A DNA stretch of 38,092 bases from Candidatus Kuenenia stuttgartensis (GTDB lineage Bacteria; Pseudomonadota; Alphaproteobacteria; SMXS01). The translations under genes were made by a program, and so were the position numbers. Where the stretch lies: assembly GCA_943329845.2 (NCBI GenBank), contig CALQFM020000037.1:1-38092 (forward strand), in the 5' to 3' direction. Shown piece after piece: positions 29,492-38,092 of this stretch (its first letter is position 1; every line of letters starts with the position of its first letter). The notes beneath the pieces were generated by a model. The model ran no database searches. It saw only the letters and a program-made list of their open reading frames with translations, and was not told the origin of the DNA.

Positions 29492-29826
29492 TGCCGAAGA
29501 TGACGTTCGTCAGCGCCGACGGAAAGACCCGCAAGGAAGTGACCGCCAAATCGGGCCTGTCGGTGCTGGAAATCGCCCACGACAACGACGTCGATATCGA
29601 GGGCGTGTGCGAGGGCTCCATGGCCTGCTCCACCTGCCACGTCATTGTCGACAAGGCGTTCTACGCGAAGCTGCCCAAGCCCAGCGCCGACGAGGCCGAC
29701 ATGCTCGACCTGGCGTTCGGCCTGCGGCCCACCTCGCGGCTCGGCTGCCAGATCCTGCTGACCGACGCCGCCGACGGGCTGGTGGTGCAACTGCCGGGCC
29801 GCACCGTCAACATGATGGATGTGTAG
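29488..29826 (+). CDS. fdx: 2Fe-2S adrenodoxin-type ferredoxin
   Basis: A 112-residue electron carrier. The cluster ligands are CEGSMACSTC (C-x5-C-x2-C) plus a later Cys in SRLGCQILL, the ISC-type adrenodoxin pattern. It probably supplies electrons for persulfide reduction during Fe-S assembly with the preceding desulfurase, whose stop overlaps its ATG. A second ATG one codon on (29491) is equally possible. The product ends NMMDV, and the next gene begins in the last base of its TAG. Confidence 0.94.
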   Translation: MMPKMTFVSADGKTRKEVTAKSGLSVLEIAHDNDVDIEGVCEGSMACSTCHVIVDKAFYAKLPKPSADEADMLDLAFGLRPTSRLGCQILLTDAADGLVVQLPGRTVNMMDV

Positions 29827-30206
29827 TGGCGGTCAGCGCCGAATACAGCGCCTTCGTGCTTGAACTGCTCGAGCCGCTCGACGGTGTTAGCCTCCGGCGC
29901 ATGTTCGGCGGCGCCGGCCTGTTCTGCCACGGGGTGATGTTCGGGCTGATCGCTGGCGACCGGCTCTATTTCAAGGCGGGCGAGGCCAAGCGGGGCGATT
30001 TCGAGGATGCCGGCTGCGGCCCGTTCACCTACGCGACGAAGAGTGGCGAGCACGGCATCCTGTCCTATTACGAGGCGCCCGATTCCCTGTTCGACGAGCA
30101 GGACGAGATGGTCGACTGGGCCCGCAAGGCGCTGGACGTGGCGCTGAGAGCCAATTCAAAAGGCGGAACGCCGAAGAAGCGGGAGAAGCACTCCCGGTCT
30201 GGGTAG
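29826..30206 (+). CDS. TfoX N-terminal-domain protein
   Basis: A 126-residue protein with the TfoX-N pattern: LRRMFGGAGLFCHGVMFGLI, then DRLYFKAGEA, CGPFTYATKSGEH and SYYEAPDSLFDE. The GTG start 29826 shares its G with the ferredoxin TAG. It lacks the C-terminal TfoX domain, so it is not a full competence regulator; single-domain members are widespread and uncharacterised. The tail is basic (KKREKHSRS). Being the last gene of the iron-sulfur operon suggests, but does not show, a link to sulfur or iron-sulfur metabolism. Confidence 0.85.
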   Translation: MAVSAEYSAFVLELLEPLDGVSLRRMFGGAGLFCHGVMFGLIAGDRLYFKAGEAKRGDFEDAGCGPFTYATKSGEHGILSYYEAPDSLFDEQDEMVDWARKALDVALRANSKGGTPKKREKHSRSG

Positions 30207-30285
30207 CGAGGCATCACGGCGCCATGCCTGCCGGAAAATGGTTATGGCGATGCCGATCTGGATGTAATGTCTGCGTGAATTCAAT

Positions 30286-30317
30286 CCTATCGTGGATCGG
30301 GCCTATCGTGGATCGGG
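30286..30317. repeat. Exact tandem duplication of a 16-bp unit upstream of the FAD oxidoreductase
   Basis: cctatcgtggatcggg is present twice without a gap (30286-30301, 30302-30317), ending 19 bases before the ATG of the FAD oxidoreductase. It falls in the 130-base space where the promoter and 5' UTR of the five-gene cluster must lie, so a copy-number change would alter the leader. A direct repeat of this kind can also be a tandem operator. Confidence 0.9.
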
Positions 30318-30336
30318 GCGGGGGCGGCCAAGGCGC

Positions 30337-31407
30337 ATGGTTGATCGTGTCGACGGCCTGATCATCGGAGGCGGCTTCTTCGGATGCATGATCGCCCTGA
30401 AACTGAAGGCGCTCGGCTTTCGCGACGTCGTGATCGCCGAGCGCGAGGGTCGCCTGATGTCGCGGGCGTCCTATGTCAATCAGGCCCGCGTCCATAACGG
30501 CTATCACTACCCGCGTTCCTTCCCCACCGCCCGCCGCTCGCGGGAGAATTTCGCGCGCTTCTGCGAAGAATTCGGCTATGCCGTCGATCGCGGACTGAAC
30601 AAGTACTACGCCATCGCCGTCGGATCGAAGGTCACGCCCGACCAGTTCCAGCGATTCTGCGAACGGATCGGGGCGCTCTGCAGGCCGGCATGGGCGGCTG
30701 TCGGCAACCGGTTCGACGCCGCGCGGATTCAGGACGTTTTTCGTGTCGAGGAACTCAGCTTCAACGCGGTGGCGCTGGCGAACGGCGTGGCCGCGGACCT
30801 GCGCCGGTCCGGTGTCGAGGTCAGGACGGATACCATTGCGCGGCTGGACTCGTTGTCCGGCGAGGCGATCGCGGTATCGCTGGGCCAGTCGACCGTTTCC
30901 GCGTCCTACGTATTCAACGCCACCTATGCCAGCCTCGATGATGTCGGGGCGTCGATCCGCGCGGGTCTCAAACGCGAACTGGTGGAGATCGCGCTGATCG
31001 AGCCGCCGGCCGGCCTGGATGGAATGGGAGTCACCGTCATGGACGGGCCGTTCTTCTCGGTAATGCCGTTTCCGGCGGAGGGATGCTATTCCCTGAGTCA
31101 CGTCCGCTATACGCCCCATGCCTACTGGTCGGGACCGGACGCTCCCGAGATGGGCCATGGCCGCTCCCATGCGGCGCACATGATCCGGGACGCCAGCCTG
31201 TACATGCCGGCGCTGGCCCGGGCGCGGTACCTGAGGTCGATCTACGACATAAAGACGGTACTGGCGCGTAATGAGGACGACGACGGCAGACCGCTGCTGT
31301 ATGAAATCCATGAGGCCAACGAGCGATTCATCTCCGTGCTCGGGGCCAAGATCGATAATGTCTATGACGTGCTGCAGCTGCTCGAGGCCACTGCATGGAA
31401 GCTGTGA
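30337..31407 (+). CDS. FAD-dependent oxidoreductase (DAO superfamily)
   Basis: A 356-residue soluble flavoprotein. The dinucleotide-binding fold is at the N-terminus (DGLIIGGGFFGCMIALKLKA, with Glu at the second strand end in VVIAEREG). NQARVHNGYHYPRS follows, a segment typical of DAO-type amine/hydroxy-acid oxidases. The middle carries a VFNATYASLDDVG second FAD contact. The substrate is unknown; context suggests oxidation of a sugar- or amino-sugar-linked hydroxyl or amine. ATG 30337 has AAGG upstream and starts just before the fold; an earlier in-frame GTG at 30292 lies inside the tandem repeat. It overlaps the next gene by 13 bases and heads a five-gene run. Confidence 0.85.
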   Translation: MVDRVDGLIIGGGFFGCMIALKLKALGFRDVVIAEREGRLMSRASYVNQARVHNGYHYPRSFPTARRSRENFARFCEEFGYAVDRGLNKYYAIAVGSKVTPDQFQRFCERIGALCRPAWAAVGNRFDAARIQDVFRVEELSFNAVALANGVAADLRRSGVEVRTDTIARLDSLSGEAIAVSLGQSTVSASYVFNATYASLDDVGASIRAGLKRELVEIALIEPPAGLDGMGVTVMDGPFFSVMPFPAEGCYSLSHVRYTPHAYWSGPDAPEMGHGRSHAAHMIRDASLYMPALARARYLRSIYDIKTVLARNEDDDGRPLLYEIHEANERFISVLGAKIDNVYDVLQLLEATAWKL

Positions 31408-32450
31408 GCGTTGTTTCGGCCCGGAAGGCCTCGGTCACCGTGGTGACGGTCGCCGACGCCGCATCACCGTCCGCGGATGATTTCAGCCGGCTGGGGGCGG
31501 TGCTGGGCGCGCATTTCACGGATGTCGAGACGATCATCGTCGCCAATGGTGTCGACCAGTCCGTGACCAGGGCGCTGGCCGACCTGGTGCGCCAGGTGCC
31601 GGACGTGACGATCATGTTCCTGCCGCAGCGCGTCGACCTCAACACCGCGCGGATGGTCGGGATGGAAAGCGCGCTGGGCGACTGGGTACTGGTCTGCACG
31701 CCTACGCCCCAGGAGATCGCGGCCCTCCCGTCGCTGCTTGCCGAGCTGGACGGCCACGACGACATTCTGCTGGGGCAAGGCCGCGCGAAGGCCGAGACCG
31801 GCACCCTCTACAGGCTGTTGCAGCGGCGATTCTACAGGGTCTATGACCGCGTCAACGGGACGACGCTCTCCATGTCCCCAGCGGCGCTGCGGCTCTATAC
31901 CAGGGCTGCCTGCCTGCATCTGGTCAACAACTTCAATGGCGAAATCCTGCTAAAGTCGGATGTCGTGCCGGGAGGCTACACAACCCGGATCATCCCGTGC
32001 GACTACGACGACGGCGCGGATCGCACCAGGCGGCTTGGCGACGCCGGGGCGAGGGGGCTGCGCATGTTCGTCAGTTCCAGCACCATTCCCCTGCGCCTGG
32101 TCAACCTGCTCGCGATCGCGTCGGCGGGGGCGGCGTCGCTGTACAGCCTCTATGTGATCGGCATCTACCTGTTCAAGAACGAGACCCAACCGGGCTGGAC
32201 CACCATGTCGCTGCAGCTTTCGGGCATGATGTTCCTGTTTTCGCTGATGTTTGCCCTGTTGTCGGAATACGTCATCCAGATCCATGGCGCCTCCAGTCCG
32301 CGGCGGCGGCTTACCGTCGCGCGCGAGGTCCGCAGCCCGCACACCCGTCTTTCTGGGCAGCTGAATATCGTCGACCAGGATGGCGCCTATCGCCTGGGCG
32401 CGCCGGACGATGCCGATCTGCCCGGCGGTTCCTCACTGTCGCGGGGTTGA
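31395..32450 (+). CDS. GT2-like membrane glycosyltransferase homolog lacking the acidic metal motif
   Basis: The 351-residue protein has the polyprenyl-phosphate glycosyltransferase layout. A GT-A domain spans ~12-230 and two transmembrane helices lie at ~240-262 and ~275-298, as in DPM1/GtrB relatives. After RVDLNTARMVGMESALGDWVLV, where active relatives have D-A-D-L-Q-D, this protein has CTPTPQE, with no acidic residue to bind nucleotide-sugar metal. Later conserved-looking parts (YRLLQRRFYRVYDRV, LSMSPAALRLY) remain. It may be an inactive partner, a binding subunit, or use an altered mechanism. The gene is embedded in the cluster with overlaps on the 5' side and a one-base gap on the 3' side. 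Confidence 0.75.
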   Translation: MEAVSVVSARKASVTVVTVADAASPSADDFSRLGAVLGAHFTDVETIIVANGVDQSVTRALADLVRQVPDVTIMFLPQRVDLNTARMVGMESALGDWVLVCTPTPQEIAALPSLLAELDGHDDILLGQGRAKAETGTLYRLLQRRFYRVYDRVNGTTLSMSPAALRLYTRAACLHLVNNFNGEILLKSDVVPGGYTTRIIPCDYDDGADRTRRLGDAGARGLRMFVSSSTIPLRLVNLLAIASAGAASLYSLYVIGIYLFKNETQPGWTTMSLQLSGMMFLFSLMFALLSEYVIQIHGASSPRRRLTVAREVRSPHTRLSGQLNIVDQDGAYRLGAPDDADLPGGSSLSRG

Positions 32451-32451
32451 G

Positions 32452-33246
32452 ATGACCGCCGGCTCCGCGCAACACCTTCAAGGCCTGATCGGCCATACGG
32501 GTTTCGTTGGTTCCAATCTCGACGCGCCGGATCGCTTCACGCATCGGTACAACAGCACCAATATAGGCGATCTCGCGCATCGCCGTTTCGGCCGGATCGT
32601 TTGCGCGGGCGTTTCCGCCGCCAAGTGGGTCGCCAATCGGGATCCTGAGGCGGACTGGCGCAATATCGAAGGGCTCATCGACGTTCTCGGGACGGTCACC
32701 GCGAGCCGCTTCGTGCTGATTTCCACCATCGACGTCTATCCGAATCCGTCCTGCCCCTGGGACGAGACGGCCAGCCTCGACGCCCTCGACAACCACGCCT
32801 ATGGCCGTCATCGGCTCGCGCTGGAGAACTGGGCGCGGGCGCATTTTCCGGCGTGCACGATTGTCAGGCTGCCGGCGCTCTTTGGTCCCGGACTCAAGAA
32901 GAACGCGCTTTACGACCTGCTGCACGCCAACATGGTGGAGAGCATCAACCGCAAGGCGCGCTTTCAGTGGTATCCGCTGAAGCGTCTCTGGGACGACCTG
33001 GCGCGTGTCGAGGCCGCGGGCATTCCGCTGATCAACCTGTTTACCGAACCGGTGGGCATGGACCGGATCATCGACCGGCTTTTCCCGGAGGCGCCGGTGG
33101 GCGAAGGCAGCGATCCCGCGCCCGACTACCGGCTACGCACGCGGTACGCGTCGCTGTTCGGCGGAGCGGACGGGTATATGCTGGATGCGGCGTCGGTCAT
33201 GCTGGACATGGCGGCCTATGTCGAGAACGAGAGGGCCGGACCGTGA
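32452..33246 (+). CDS. NAD-dependent epimerase/dehydratase-like (extended SDR) protein
   Basis: A 264-residue protein with a Rossmann start GLIGHTGFVGSNL (GxxGxxG). A strand carrying the catalytic Ser/Thr position follows (RFVLISTIDVYPN), then YGRHRLALENWA where the SDR Tyr-x-x-x-Lys would be. Here the fifth position is Arg instead of Lys. A nucleotide-sugar role is suggested by RLPALFGPGLKKNALYDLL. It is shorter than most epimerases (~310), and the C-terminal substrate-binding lobe is reduced. ATG 32452 is 1 base past the stop of the GT2-like gene. GTGA couples it to the next gene. Reductase, epimerase or dehydratase cannot be distinguished by eye. Confidence 0.8.
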   Translation: MTAGSAQHLQGLIGHTGFVGSNLDAPDRFTHRYNSTNIGDLAHRRFGRIVCAGVSAAKWVANRDPEADWRNIEGLIDVLGTVTASRFVLISTIDVYPNPSCPWDETASLDALDNHAYGRHRLALENWARAHFPACTIVRLPALFGPGLKKNALYDLLHANMVESINRKARFQWYPLKRLWDDLARVEAAGIPLINLFTEPVGMDRIIDRLFPEAPVGEGSDPAPDYRLRTRYASLFGGADGYMLDAASVMLDMAAYVENERAGP

Positions 33247-34049
33247 CGCGGCCGCTGTCCATTTCCAACATCGCCTGGCCGGCCGAGCATGACGACGAGG
33301 CCCTGACGCTGATCCGCGCTCAGGGGTTCACCGGTGTGGAGCTTGCGCCGCGCAAGGTCTTCGGGCCGCTCGACCAGGTCGCTCCGGGCGCCTTGCGGGA
33401 TTACCGGAGCCGGTGCGACTCCATGGGGCTCGGCATCCCGGCCCTGCAGGGCTTGCTGTTCGGCGTCGAGGGCGTGGCGCTGTTCGGAGACGATGCCGGC
33501 CGCGCCGCGCTGCTGGCCGCGCTCAGCGACGTGGCGGTTGCGGCGGGTCTGCTGGGCGCGCACGCCTGTGTCTTCGGCGCCCCGAAGCTGCGTGATCCCG
33601 GCGCCCTTGCGCCCGACGCCGCGTTCGACCTTGCCGTGGGTTTTTTCCGCAGGGTCGGGGAGATTTATGCGGGCGAGGGAACGGCGCTCACCTTCGAGGC
33701 CAACGCCGAAGCCTATGGATGCCGTTTCGTGACCCGGACCGAGGAGGCCATCGATTTCGTCGCCGCCGTCGGCAGTCCGGGCCTGCGGCTACAGATCGAT
33801 ACCGGCACCATGTTCATGAACGGCGAGGATCCCAGCGTTATCGGGCGCGCCGTGCCCTACGCGGGTCATTTCCATGCCAGCGAGCCGCAACTGGCGCCGC
33901 TCGGCACCGGTGGCGATCATGCACCGATCGCCGCGGCGCTCAACGAGGCGGGATATGATGGAAGCCGGTCGGTCGAGATGCGGATTGCCGAGGACTGGCG
34001 AGGCGCGGTGATCGATGCCGCCAGGCTGATGAACACCATCTATGGGTGA
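33243..34049 (+). CDS. TIM-barrel sugar isomerase/epimerase-like protein (AP endonuclease 2 family)
   Basis: A 268-residue protein with the xylose-isomerase-like barrel. Metal ligands are arranged as in the family: Glu in LTFEANAEAYG, Asp in LQIDTGTMF, His in GHFHASEPQ, and Glu in SVEMRIAEDW. The N-terminus (LSISNIAWPAEHDDEAL) is typical. Such enzymes isomerise or epimerise keto-sugars or inositols, or act as dehydratases. GTG 33243 overlaps the preceding stop, and the 3' end overlaps the next ATG by 8 bases. The context predicts a free or nucleotide-linked sugar intermediate; the actual substrate is unknown. Confidence 0.82.
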   Translation: MTRPLSISNIAWPAEHDDEALTLIRAQGFTGVELAPRKVFGPLDQVAPGALRDYRSRCDSMGLGIPALQGLLFGVEGVALFGDDAGRAALLAALSDVAVAAGLLGAHACVFGAPKLRDPGALAPDAAFDLAVGFFRRVGEIYAGEGTALTFEANAEAYGCRFVTRTEEAIDFVAAVGSPGLRLQIDTGTMFMNGEDPSVIGRAVPYAGHFHASEPQLAPLGTGGDHAPIAAALNEAGYDGSRSVEMRIAEDWRGAVIDAARLMNTIYG

Positions 34050-36348
34050 TCCGGCCTGGGAGTTGCCCGCCTTCGAGGCAACCATATTCCGTGACGGGGC
34101 GCACCGGCATGCGCTGGTGATCCCGGTTCTCAACGAGGGCGAGCGCATTCGCGGCCAGCTTCGCCGGCTGGCCGAACTGGCGCCGGCCGTGGATATCGTC
34201 ATCGCCGACGGCGGCTCGACCGATGGCTCGCTCGACGATCCATTTCTGCAATCGCTGGGCGTACGCGCGCGCCTTGTGAAAACCGGCGCCGGCAAGCTGG
34301 GAGCGCAGCTCCGGATGGCCTATGCCTGGTGCCTGGAGCAGGGCTATGACGGCGTCGTCACCGTCGATGGCAACGGCAAGGACGGCATGGAAGCCGTCGA
34401 AACCTTCGTCGCGAAACTGCGCGAAGGATTCGACCTGGTGCAGGGTTCCCGGTTCGTCAGGGGGGGCGAGGCGGTCAACACGCCGCTGGATCGCCACGTC
34501 GCCAATCGTCTTGTACACGCGCCGCTGATCTCGCTCGCCGCCGGATTCTGGTACACGGACACGACGAACGGGTTCCGGGCCTACTCCCGCCGCCTGCTCG
34601 AGGATCGGGCGGTCGCTCCGTTCCGCGACGTTTTCGACCGCTATGGGCTGCTGTTCTACATGTCGGTCCGCGCGCCGCGGCTGGGCTACCGCGTGACGGA
34701 GGTTCCGGTCCGCCGGGCTTATCCCGCGGGGGAGAAGCCGCCGACGAAAATTGGCGGCCTACGCGGCAAGCTGGGTATCCTGGCCGAGCTGGCGCAGGCG
34801 GTGACCCAAGGTTATACGCCGGGCAGCCCGGGCTCTTCCGTGGGGCGTGCTGCTCTGGTCCTCGCCCTTCCAATGATCGCCATGGTGGCGCTTTTTCTCC
34901 GCCACCTGTCGCATCCGCCCTATGGCGCGGATGCGTGGTTCTATTTCGAGCTGTCGCGCAGCGTTTTCCACGATTTCTACCGTGTGGTGACGGAACGCTC
35001 CTTCATGCTCGATGGGCCTTACAGCGCGGCATTTCCGCCGCTCTGGCCGGTGTTGATCGCGGTCACCGATGCGGTCACGGGGCTTGGTGCGAGAAGCGGC
35101 TATGTCCTGGCTTTCCTGGCGTTCTCCATGACATGCCTGTTGTCTGAATGGCTTGCCCGCGACCGGTACCGGATCAGGTGGGCAGGCCTCGCGGCCGCCA
35201 TGCTGCTCATCGCTCTCGCCGGCTTCAGGAAGGAATTGCTGGGGGGCGGCACGGTCCCGCTTCAGGTGCTGCTCTACGCAGCGATGCTGCTGGTATTCCT
35301 GCGGTCGCGCCTTGCCGGCCTGGCGCCCGCCGTCATCCTTGGCGCCTTGGCCGGGATCAGCGTGCTGAACCGCTTCGACGTCATGCCGTTCGCCGCGCTG
35401 CTCGCGGCGGCGATCCTCATCTACACGCGCCGGATCGGGCCTGCCTTGGCGTATATCGCCGTGCTGCTGATTGTCCTGTCGCCATGGATCCTGTATTCAC
35501 ACCAGCAGTTCGGCGTGTTCTTCGCCACCGACAATGGCTGGGTCGCCACGGCGGTCGACAAGACGGCCTATGCGACCGACTGGCGGCCCGACGGCGTCAT
35601 GACGCTGGCCGACGATCCGATCGGCTGGCTGCGCAAGGTCATCGGGAATGCGCTCTGGCTTGTCGTCCTGATGGGCGACGACCTGCTGCCGCCGGTCCTG
35701 GCTCTGGCCGTCGCCGTGAGCCTGCTCGGGCGGTCGCGCGTGGGCGGGCTGAAGGCCGTGGCCAGGGAAGGGCTGCGGGACGACTCGGTCAGGCGCACGG
35801 CCCTGTTCGCGCTGGCCATGGCGGGACCGCTCGCCGGCTATGTTGCCACTGGCTATCTGATAGGCCGCTACTACGGCCCATGGTATTGGCTCGTCCTGGT
35901 GATGGCAATCGGCGTCGGCGCGACCCTGGCCCGCTCGGCGGCCCAGCGGGACGTGCTGGGGGCGGCCCTGCTGCAGGTCGCGGCTCTACTCGTCCTGTTC
36001 TGGAGCATGGTGCCGGGCGCCACATCCGCCGACGGCGTGTCGTTCCCGCGCAACATGGCGCTCGACCGGCTTCACGCGTGCCTGTCAGACCGCCCGAAGT
36101 CGGCCGTGCTGTTCGTGGGCGACGACGTTGCTGCGTCGCGTTTCGGCGCCGTCTACGGCGTCCGCAGCGTGCTGATGCCGCGCAATCTGGATTCGCTGGA
36201 CCCGGCACCGCTGCGCCGCTTCATCGACGCGCGCGGGATCACCCACCTCTTCGTCGCCAAGCCGGAGCTTGCAAAGGACGTGGAGCTTATCCCCGGCCTT
36301 GGCAGGCAGGATGGCTGCGCGGTTCCCCTTTACGTCGTGGCGAAGTAG
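34042..36348 (+). CDS. Fused glycosyltransferase: GT2 domain plus GT-C (PMT/ArnT-like) integral membrane domain
   Basis: A 768-residue two-domain protein. Residues ~20-250 form a GT2 domain (ALVIPVLNEGERIRGQL, IVIADGGSTDGSL, acidic motif VTVDGNGKDG, then DTTNGFRAYSRR). From ~272 to ~680 at least eight hydrophobic helices form a GT-C fold, with an acidic first loop after helix 1 (GADAWFYFELSRSV) matching the catalytic Asp position of PMT/ArnT enzymes. A soluble tail (~690-768) follows. The family logic is that GT2 makes a polyprenyl-phosphate sugar on the cytoplasmic face and GT-C transfers it outside. Having both in one chain is unusual. It is the last gene of the cluster and stops 3 bases from the convergent enoyl-CoA hydratase. 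Confidence 0.85.
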   Translation: MGDPAWELPAFEATIFRDGAHRHALVIPVLNEGERIRGQLRRLAELAPAVDIVIADGGSTDGSLDDPFLQSLGVRARLVKTGAGKLGAQLRMAYAWCLEQGYDGVVTVDGNGKDGMEAVETFVAKLREGFDLVQGSRFVRGGEAVNTPLDRHVANRLVHAPLISLAAGFWYTDTTNGFRAYSRRLLEDRAVAPFRDVFDRYGLLFYMSVRAPRLGYRVTEVPVRRAYPAGEKPPTKIGGLRGKLGILAELAQAVTQGYTPGSPGSSVGRAALVLALPMIAMVALFLRHLSHPPYGADAWFYFELSRSVFHDFYRVVTERSFMLDGPYSAAFPPLWPVLIAVTDAVTGLGARSGYVLAFLAFSMTCLLSEWLARDRYRIRWAGLAAAMLLIALAGFRKELLGGGTVPLQVLLYAAMLLVFLRSRLAGLAPAVILGALAGISVLNRFDVMPFAALLAAAILIYTRRIGPALAYIAVLLIVLSPWILYSHQQFGVFFATDNGWVATAVDKTAYATDWRPDGVMTLADDPIGWLRKVIGNALWLVVLMGDDLLPPVLALAVAVSLLGRSRVGGLKAVAREGLRDDSVRRTALFALAMAGPLAGYVATGYLIGRYYGPWYWLVLVMAIGVGATLARSAAQRDVLGAALLQVAALLVLFWSMVPGATSADGVSFPRNMALDRLHACLSDRPKSAVLFVGDDVAASRFGAVYGVRSVLMPRNLDSLDPAPLRRFIDARGITHLFVAKPELAKDVELIPGLGRQDGCAVPLYVVAK

Positions 36349-36351
36349 CGG

Positions 36352-37146
36352 TCAGCGGCCCTCGAACTTCGCGGGGCGCTTTTCGCGGAACGCGGTCGTG
36401 CCTTCGGTGTAGTCGAAGGTCTTCGACGCGCGGATCTGCAGATTGTATTCCAGCTCGAGCTGCTGGTCGTAATTGTTGGCCCAGGTGGCGGCCAGCGCCT
36501 TGCGAATGAAGGAATAGGCCTTGGTCGGGCCCTTGGCCATGCGCGCGGCGAGCTCCATCACCGTGGGCATCAGCTTGTCGTCGTCGAGCACCTCGGAGAT
36601 CATGCCCCATTCGAGCGCCCGCTCGGCGGGGACGCGCTCGCCCAGCATCATCATCCTGGCGGCCCGGGCCTTGCCGATCAGGCGCGGCAGGATGAAGGTG
36701 CTGCCCGCGTCCGGCACCAGGCCGATATTGATGAATGCCTGCATGAAATACGCCGACCGTGCGGCGTAGACCAGGTCGCCTGAGATCGCCAGGCTCATGC
36801 CGGCACCGGCGGCCGGACCGTTGACGGCGGTGATGATCGGCGCCTTCAGGTCGCGCATGCGCTTCAGCATGGGATGGTAGTAGATGTCGAGCGTGGCGAC
36901 CGTGTTGTCGGGATCGTCCGGATCGGCCGGCTTGCGGTTCTTCAAATTTGCGCCGGCGCAGAAGGCACGGCCTTCGCCGGTGATCACCACCGAGCGCACC
37001 TTGCTCTCGCGGTCCTCCAGGATCCCCAGCACTTCCTTCAGGCTTTGCAGCATGGGCAGGGAGACGGCGTTCATCGCCTCCGGATCGTTGAGCTTCACGA
37101 CGGCTACGCCATCATTGATGTCGAGCGAAACCTTGTCGAATTCCAT
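36352..37146 (-). CDS. Enoyl-CoA hydratase/isomerase-family protein
   Basis: A 264-residue crotonase-fold protein. The oxyanion hole segments are GRAFCAGANLKNRK and NGPAAGAGMSLAISGD. The catalytic-region segment reads FINIGLVPDAGSTFILPRL, with Asp-Ala at the position often holding the second acid; the usual first Glu is not clear. Hydratase versus isomerase activity, and the CoA thioester used, cannot be decided. ATG 37146 has GGGAG at 7 bases; the open frame upstream to 37218 has no support. It is isolated, convergent with the glycosyltransferase cluster. Confidence 0.88.
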   Translation of the reverse strand: MEFDKVSLDINDGVAVVKLNDPEAMNAVSLPMLQSLKEVLGILEDRESKVRSVVITGEGRAFCAGANLKNRKPADPDDPDNTVATLDIYYHPMLKRMRDLKAPIITAVNGPAAGAGMSLAISGDLVYAARSAYFMQAFINIGLVPDAGSTFILPRLIGKARAARMMMLGERVPAERALEWGMISEVLDDDKLMPTVMELAARMAKGPTKAYSFIRKALAATWANNYDQQLELEYNLQIRASKTFDYTEGTTAFREKRPAKFEGR

Positions 37147-37211
37147 GTGCCGTCTCCCATGATTGCCGGCCCTGCTTAATGCGGAAGCCGGGCGTCGGCA
37201 AGACGGCATTG

Positions 37212-37237
37212 CGCGCACGGCCGGACGGCCGTGCGCG
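37212..37237 (-). terminator. Strong GC hairpin after the DUF4167-like gene
   Basis: A perfect 11-bp inverted repeat (CGCGCACGGCC / GGCCGTGCGCG) with a GGAC loop, 22 bases past the stop codon of the minus-strand gene at the window end. No U-tract follows on the minus strand, so it may act as a weak terminator or as a 3'-end stabiliser rather than a classical Rho-independent terminator. Confidence 0.6.
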
Positions 37238-37258: not shown

Positions 37259-38092
37259 TCAGGCCGCTTCGGCGGGCGGCTTGCGCGGCGCGCGCGGCTT
37301 GCGGGCGGGCTTGGGCTTGGCGGCCGGCGCCTCGGCGGCGGCCTCCGCGACGGGAGCGGCCGCCTCGGCCTTCGGCTTGGCGGCGCGGCGGCGCGGCTTG
37401 GCCTTGGGTGCGTCCTCGGCCGCAGGCGCAGCCTCGGCGGCGACGGACTCGACGGCGACGGCCTCAGGAGCCGCTGCCTTCGCGGCGCGCGGCTTGCGCA
37501 CCCGCTTCGGCTTGGCGGCCGGCTGTTCCGCGGTCACGTTCGCGCTGGCATCCAGTTCAGGCTGGGCCTGGTATTCCACGGGCGCAACTTCGCCGACGGC
37601 CTCGATGGCGGGCGATTGCTGGCCGGCGTCCCGCGGCTTCTTGCCGCGCGGCCGGCGCTTGCGCTTCGATCTGGGTTCACCGGTCGGTTCCGGGGTGACG
37701 GAGGCCAGCGGCTCGGCGGACCGGGTCTCCGCGACGTCTTCGGGCGCGTCGGTCTCCGAGATATCGAGTTCCAGATCCACCTCGTCCTCGTCATCGTCGG
37801 CGGGGATCGGCGCGATCTTGAAGGTGCGCAGCAGGAATTCGGGGACGTGGTCGCCAAGCCCGACAACGGGTTCGAAGTCGTCATCCCGGGAATACCGGCG
37901 CTCGCCGCCGCGCCCGCGGTCACGGTCGCGGCCCCGGTCACGCGGAGTGGCATCGCGCCTTGGTTCGTCGCGGCGGCCAGAATCTCGCCGGCTATCATCT
38001 CGCCGGCTATCATCTCGCCGGCTATCATCTCGCCGGCTATCGTCGCGCCGGCTATCGTCGCGCCGGCTATCGTCGCGCCGGCTATCGTCGCG
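37259..38092 (-). CDS. DUF4167-like Arg/Asp-rich disordered protein, C-terminal part (5' end outside window)
   Basis: The frame enters from beyond the window and ends at 37259. Reading N to C it begins with DDSRR pentapeptide repeats, then an Arg/Asp/Gly block (RDRGRDRDRGRGGERR). A short conserved-looking motif follows (GDHVPEFLLRTFKIAP), then an acidic patch and a long Ala/Pro/Lys/Arg tail with KPRA and RPRGKK blocks typical of nucleic-acid-binding disordered tails. The HVPEFLLR element and composition resemble the C-terminus of alphaproteobacterial DUF4167 proteins, whose N-terminal domain (outside the window) would decide. An Ala/Lys-rich helicase or ribonuclease tail is an alternative. 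No other gene lies in this stretch; frames reading MIAGEMIAGE are shadows of the repeat. Confidence 0.55.
   Translation of the reverse strand, partial: RDDSRRDDSRRDDSRRDDSRRDDSRRDDSRRDDSRRDSGRRDEPRRDATPRDRGRDRDRGRGGERRYSRDDDFEPVVGLGDHVPEFLLRTFKIAPIPADDDEDEVDLELDISETDAPEDVAETRSAEPLASVTPEPTGEPRSKRKRRPRGKKPRDAGQQSPAIEAVGEVAPVEYQAQPELDASANVTAEQPAAKPKRVRKPRAAKAAAPEAVAVESVAAEAAPAAEDAPKAKPRRRAAKPKAEAAAPVAEAAAEAPAAKPKPARKPRAPRKPPAEAA
37983..38092 (-). repeat. 15-bp in-frame tandem repeat encoding DDSRR units
   Basis: Seven full copies and a partial eighth of a 15-bp unit run from 37983 to the window edge, continuing outside. The plus-strand form is tctcgccggctatca for three copies, a hybrid fourth, and tcgcgccggctatcg for the rest, differing at two third-codon positions. 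The unit length keeps the frame and gives (Asp-Asp-Ser-Arg-Arg)n. The array has two blocks of identical copies, as expected from recent stepwise slippage. Confidence 0.95.

Follow-up and report, generated by a model that had tools for sequence, protein, structure and literature searches.

A conserved, mobile five-gene cluster of known enzyme families as a candidate sugar-remodeling glycosylation pathway

The 38,092-nucleotide stretch of DNA analyzed here (the window; contig CALQFM020000037.1 of assembly GCA_943329845.2, deposited as Candidatus Kuenenia stuttgartensis and placed by GTDB in the Alphaproteobacteria) encodes near its right end a cluster of five genes, g1 to g5. Their products are, in order, a flavoenzyme of the DAO superfamily (DAO), a degenerate family 2 glycosyltransferase (GT2) related to GtrB (dGT2), an extended short-chain dehydrogenase/reductase (SDR), a TIM-barrel sugar epimerase or isomerase (TIM), and a GT2 fused to a multi-transmembrane (multi-TM) region. 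The cluster is a real functional unit, conserved and mobile, built from known enzyme families. The interpretation we favor, with a probability of about one half, is that it constitutes a horizontally acquired glycosylation pathway of the three-component type with its own sugar-remodeling enzymes; the enzyme families, the site residues and the gene linkage are established here, and from them we infer the reactions, their order, the sugar and the acceptor.

All five genes lie on the forward strand and either overlap or are separated by a single base pair (spacing by open reading frame coordinates: -13, +1, -4 and -8 bp), just as the earlier note had described them. A scan of contigs with DAO alone recovered only four relatives; profiles run against whole genomes, 385 from the class and 398 from the phylum, found more. 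The dGT2, DAO, SDR, TIM and GT2 genes occur together at locus L002, from an alphaproteobacterial metagenome-assembled genome (MAG), and in genomes G145, G108, G215, G709, G526 and G727. L002 keeps the order of g1 to g4, with the GT2 and multi-TM portions encoded by separate genes directly upstream. Genome G340 possesses the DAO-SDR-TIM trio, and the loci in G350, G506 and G634 are interrupted by contig ends. Within the class sample, all six genomes with a strong SDR match are among the nine with a DAO match, and the genes are neighbors (hypergeometric probability ~2e-11, with relatedness ignored); SDR matches in G220 and G277 (E 7e-17 and 1e-14), which lack the other genes, were excluded from these counts.

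The same association is seen on mobile elements. DAO and SDR are found in an identical set of 12 out of 72,556 plasmid records, several of them closely related to each other, and the set is present on plasmids of Azospirillum, Cereibacter, Sphingomonas, Roseobacter, Sagittula, Ruegeria and Psychrobacter, while a Mesorhizobium plasmid carries DAO, SDR and a TIM fragment amid insertion sequences. In all, plasmids from nine genera hold these families together, in one case in degraded form. Of the 41 SDR loci on viral contigs, 26 have DAO as well as TIM close by; SDR-less viral relatives of DAO (most of L092-L170) were set aside as a separate subfamily. One temperate-phage contig, IMGVR_UViG_2903814385_000001 (L054 and L091 are two views of it), bears dGT2, DAO, SDR, TIM, an SMR-like gene, GT2 and a multi-TM gene adjoining a CI-like repressor and a phage regulator. 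Among deposited phage genomes, the SDR search retrieved one unannotated 4-kb record. The set is also found together in other proteobacterial families and is not a chance neighborhood; unlinked genes in other genomes would have spoken against the earlier note's proposal of a shared pathway, and the genes prove to be linked across families, plasmids and a phage contig. Since gene order is shuffled between loci, selection appears to act on the set itself, which argues against a single block inherited intact.

Some of these mobile loci have further features of their own. The 10,782-bp plasmid pA22P4 of Psychrobacter sp. (L045, 2336-8624) has the pathway as its sole apparent cargo, comprising SDR, TIM, SMR, DAO, a dGT2-GT2 fusion and a multi-TM gene, beside mobilization and replication genes; a literature search, incomplete in coverage, found no description of this plasmid. 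On the temperate-phage contig, a zinc-ribbon regulator resembles Ogr/Delta of P2-type phages (the link to P2 was made by eye), and a phage-borne change of the host surface is possible. In L051 and L064, phage-contig copies of the DAO-SDR-TIM trio are flanked by phrog_14998, a conserved protein of unknown function, on one side and a DNA-methyltransferase-like gene on the other. A UvsX-like recombinase is encoded close by, and the trio might there bear on DNA or virion modification. Many viral contigs within L092-L170 have no SDR but encode a relative of DAO that is more distant, at 25-35% identity.

The GT2 domain of the cluster forms a separate subfamily, marked by an invariant DGN.KD site, and it is dedicated to the cluster: it occurs in 10 plasmid records, every one of which is a DAO and SDR record, and in three of the 385 class genomes, all three with the cluster. 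This restricted distribution speaks against the notion that the trio is a sugar-catabolic or salvage module, oxidizing, isomerizing and reducing its substrate, that merely neighbors glycosyltransferases by chance. So do the polysaccharide genes that surround the plasmid loci, the fusion of dGT2 to GT2 and the lack of a sugar kinase or transporter in the unit. We accordingly regard such a module as very improbable, with due note of the catabolic ketose epimerases among the PDB relatives of TIM and of the G340 trio, within a few kb of which are genes resembling those for a sugar ABC transporter (by reading and not by family search).

Loci without the SDR combine DAO and dGT2 with another NAD(P) reductase. 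In G178 this is a classical SDR; in G114 it belongs to the Gfo/Idh/MocA family, and a GT2 gene and a multi-TM gene come after it. We read both as replacements of the reductase by an unrelated enzyme with the same task. At L206 (6056-12116) and L205 (5184-7947), DAO and dGT2 are accompanied by a Gfo/Idh/MocA protein or a classical SDR in place of the extended SDR.

The g1 product displays the profile match, the fold and the N-terminal GxGxxG of the DAO superfamily, and the motif NQAR(V/I)H.GYHYPR is kept across its family. Nearest to its AlphaFold model (pLDDT 90), with equal scores of Z ~31, are the chains of 3dme, E. coli GlpD and glycine oxidase. Many of the nearest folds are amine or amino-acid oxidases, as would be expected if the flavoenzyme acted on an amino group or amino acid; its product would then be no epimer but an amino-sugar, a keto-sugar or a modified amino acid. 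We consider this improbable: in the PDB the family profile matches glycerol-3-phosphate oxidase best, an enzyme that oxidizes an alcohol; the unit includes no aminotransferase; and g1 has sugar-type enzymes, TIM and SDR, as its partners. The name L-2-hydroxyglutarate oxidase was rejected for g1, the curated model scoring far below its cut-off; none of the curated NCBIfam models reached its cut-off for any of g1 to g5.

In g4, E152, D186, H211 and E245 are invariant in 13 of 13 homologs, and we take them, by position in the family, to be the four metal ligands (two Glu, Asp and His). Among PDB entries, g4 is related to the ketose 3-epimerases and, distantly, to YcjR (6wn6), a 3-keto-D-glucoside 4-epimerase (PMC11543891). 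Ketose 3-epimerase and hydroxypyruvate isomerase were discarded as names for g4, their curated models being far below cut-off. The model of g3 (pLDDT 91.6) adopts the extended-SDR fold, with Z scores of 21-24 to UDP-sugar epimerases, MoeE5 and RmlD.

Both the catalytic and the TM regions are covered by the matches of the g2 family profile to GtrB sll0501 (E 1.6e-36) and ArnC (E 1e-26), and a hydropathy scan finds two TM segments in g2. It thus has the domain plan and C-terminal TM pair of the GtrB/ArnC polyprenyl-phosphate glycosyltransferases but, unlike them, lacks the DxD donor/metal site. This region reads TPT in the window and is highly variable, the first Asp being present in six of 12 homologs and the second in just one, so that the label of a degenerate GT2 is well chosen. 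In the Psychrobacter plasmid dGT2 and GT2 are a single reading frame. With its membrane domain retained and its donor-site Asp residues lost, g2 probably serves to keep the soluble enzymes or the lipid-linked sugar in place at the membrane. It also provides a naturally occurring, conserved example of a glycosyltransferase-like protein that has no donor site.

The profile of the g5 GT2 domain matches DPMS (5mlz, E 1.8e-18) and is also related to AglJ/DPM-type models, and about nine hydrophobic segments are predicted past residue 266. The two halves of g5 are separate genes in L044 and L048, as in L002, and the protein at the homologous position of the multi-TM region on a phage contig has a weak PMT_2 match, below cut-off. 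Several relatives encode flippase-type proteins within the cluster, by Pfam GtrA in L043, L044 and L179 and SMR in L045, with GtrA additionally annotated at L046, L048 and L049. In Ruegeria conchae, the position after the cluster that holds the multi-TM gene at other loci is taken by an XrtD-type exosortase gene (L049, 14588-16240).

The cluster is absent from five genomes of the same genus (G001-G005), in which its tfoX-like and enoyl-CoA hydratase flanks adjoin, with a gap of 24 bp (G005) to ~285 bp (G002) as against 6.1 kb in the window. The cassette edges relative to the closest congeners fall at 30152-30190 on the left and 36348-36351 on the right, and hence the extra DNA consists of the five genes and almost nothing more. 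Its absence in all five congeners and its presence on mobile elements elsewhere suggest gain as a unit here rather than loss there. By GC content the cassette does not stand out as foreign DNA (66.1% versus 66.0%). A short repeat encoding RRDDS units, in the tail of a reverse-strand reading frame, occupies the right end of the window (37990-38092).

Table 1. Coordinates of the cluster and its surroundings in the window
Feature	Position	Strand	Start and length	Supporting match or observation
g1, DAO-superfamily FAD-dependent oxidoreductase	30337..31407	+	ATG, 356 aa	PF01266, E 7.6e-20
g2 (dGT2), GtrB/ArnC-like GT2 with two C-terminal TM helices, without DxD	31395..32450	+	ATG, 351 aa	PF00535, E 1.1e-5
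g3, extended SDR with YxxxR for YxxxK	32452..33246	+	ATG, 264 aa	PF01370, E 1.1e-7
g4, TIM-barrel sugar epimerase/isomerase with intact metal site	33243..34049	+	GTG, 268 aa	PF01261, E 3.5e-22
g5, DPMS-like GT2 domain (~residues 1-260) and multi-TM GT-C-like region	34042..36348	+	ATG, 768 aa	PF00535, E 4.4e-8
Left flank, TfoX N-terminal domain protein, outside the unit	29823..30206	+		PF04993, E 5.6e-31
Right flank, enoyl-CoA hydratase/isomerase, outside the unit	36352..37218	-		PF00378, E 1.5e-61
Cassette missing from five congeners	30190..36351	.		tfoX-like and enoyl-CoA hydratase genes adjoin in G001-G005

In the favored three-component-type pathway, the N-terminal DPMS-like domain of g5 would put a sugar on polyprenyl phosphate at the cytoplasmic face of the membrane. 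A hydroxyl of this sugar would be oxidized to a ketone by g1, the carbon adjacent to the ketone inverted by the metal-dependent g4, and the ketone reduced by g3 to yield an epimerized rare sugar. A small GtrA/SMR-type protein, as encoded within the cluster in relatives, would then turn the lipid-linked sugar over, and its transfer to an envelope glycan in the periplasm would fall to the GT-C-like part of g5. The three-component layout is proposed because the GtrA/SMR proteins of the relatives, the DPMS-like GT2 and the multi-TM region fit it, and redox epimerization because an oxidase, a keto-sugar epimerase and a reductase are present, with precedents in DprE1/DprE2 and YcjQ/YcjR/YcjS. The fit of the families together with these precedents leads us to take oxidation, epimerization, reduction, loading, flipping and transfer as the set of functions. 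The earlier note had proposed that the genes oxidize, rearrange, lipid-link and transfer a sugar, which agrees with the enzyme families and with the small membrane proteins of the relatives and is partly supported; the GT-C-like part is not universal in the unit, G215 and the Azospirillum loci having the other five families with no multi-TM gene beside them.

The stage at which the sugar would be remodeled can be construed in two ways. Action at the membrane is suggested because dGT2, a membrane protein, stays with DAO, and action before loading because the trio is present on phage contigs without this GT2. In the latter case the trio would make a nucleotide-activated rare sugar in the cytoplasm, the GT2 would load the finished sugar, and dGT2 would either assist the GT2 or be itself a glycosyltransferase whose donor site is unusual. 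Phage contigs indeed often carry the trio in the absence of these two, beside glycosyltransferase and GDP-mannose dehydratase-like genes; the g3 model is nearest to nucleotide-sugar enzymes, and a GT2 subfamily of its own with an invariant site is what might be expected for a special donor. Yet the conserved unit includes neither a nucleotidyltransferase nor a kinase, and a membrane-bound substrate is suggested by the persistence of dGT2 next to DAO at loci that lack SDR and TIM. We see cytoplasmic synthesis as a possible course of events, but not the probable one, and lean slightly towards remodeling in the bacterial clusters on the lipid-linked sugar, as happens with DprE1/DprE2, over remodeling of a nucleotide sugar before charging. 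A bolder version of the pathway, in which the GtrB-like protein devoid of a donor site presents the polyprenyl-phosphate sugar to the oxidase, epimerase and reductase to form a new surface sugar spread by plasmids and phages, is offered tentatively and is rather unlikely to hold in full.

Several observations weigh against the favored pathway. Phage contigs with DAO, SDR and TIM in the absence of dGT2 or a GT2 of this kind suggest that the trio is able to work without a lipid carrier, and two planctomycete MAGs have DAO and SDR only. The cluster in the window has no flippase gene, with one GtrA-family gene elsewhere in the genome. The DAO superfamily oxidizes C-N and C-O bonds alike, and the fold cannot discriminate between them. 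In g3, the YxxxK pattern is absent: Y117 and R121 are found in 17 of 17 homologs, with Arg replacing the usual catalytic Lys; 1e7s, the K140R mutant of GDP-fucose synthase with a comparable change, is among the fold matches of g3. Finally, while the GT2-GT-C fusion of the earlier note is borne out for the GT2 (PF00535) and the TM segments that follow it, the C-terminal half of g5 may be GT-C-like by topology alone and matches no GT-C family in Pfam.

Two further kinds of neighborhood are seen around related loci. In L002 (5229-7306), a DprE1-like and a DprE2-like gene lie next to the cluster and diverge from it; their scores of 273 and 157 bits fall short of the curated cut-offs. Near DAO in L066 (11298-13515), where the whole DAO-SDR-TIM trio is present, and in L207 (2331-7928) there are genes for SIS-domain, transaldolase-like and GHMP-kinase proteins, a setting that recalls activated-heptose pathways.

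If the favored pathway is correct, oxidation by a flavoenzyme, epimerization and reduction would join the few known bacterial routes that diversify a lipid-linked donor sugar, and loss of a small unit should remove one surface sugar. Genes annotated as 'hypothetical protein' or 'FAD-dependent oxidoreductase' in Rhodobacterales, Sphingomonas, Azospirillum and others would likewise acquire a role.

The earlier note knew of no pathway with this exact set, and our literature search for the gene combination also found no description, its incomplete coverage meaning that this is not proof of the set being undescribed. The closest parallels are the three-component systems, in which a sugar is placed on polyprenyl phosphate, flipped and transferred by a periplasmic GT-C enzyme, some having epimerases that act on the lipid-linked sugar (PMC11127046). 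The cluster shares with these Gtr-type systems a polyprenyl-phosphate-type GT2, a putative small flippase (GtrA or SMR, in relatives), a multi-TM protein that may be GT-C-like, sugar-modifying genes alongside and occurrence on a phage contig; peculiar to it are the remodeling enzymes, namely DAO flavoenzyme, TIM-barrel epimerase and SDR, and the second, degenerate GtrB-like protein. It differs from the pentofuranose three-component systems, which start from phosphoribosyl pyrophosphate and use an ORF13-type SDR or DprE1/DprE2; the authors describing them wrote that they were unaware of any further epimerases in systems for O-polysaccharide side chains (PMC11127046).

DprE1/DprE2, which perform the 2'-epimerization of decaprenylphosphoryl ribose (PMC10307805), likewise pair an FAD oxidase with an SDR reductase to invert a hydroxyl, as predicted here, near lipid-sugar enzymes. 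However, DprE1 belongs to the FAD_binding_4 family whereas g1 is a DAO protein in both profile (PF01266) and fold, DprE2 is a classical SDR whereas g3 is an extended one (PF01370) with no match to the NCBIfam DprE2 model, and g4 has no counterpart in that pair; g1 may nevertheless work like DprE1 despite the different family. E. coli YcjQ/YcjR/YcjS, respectively a D-glucoside dehydrogenase, the 3-keto-D-glucoside epimerase and a second dehydrogenase (PMC11543891), provide the parallel for oxidation, TIM-barrel epimerization beside the ketone and reduction, as predicted for the cluster. There two sugar dehydrogenases carry out the redox steps, and their cluster also encodes a transporter and phosphorylases (PMC11543891), whereas here the redox steps would fall to a flavoenzyme and an SDR in the company of lipid glycosyltransferases. 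Thus, the layout of the cluster is of a known kind, and it is the remodeling set and the degenerate GtrB-like protein that set it apart.

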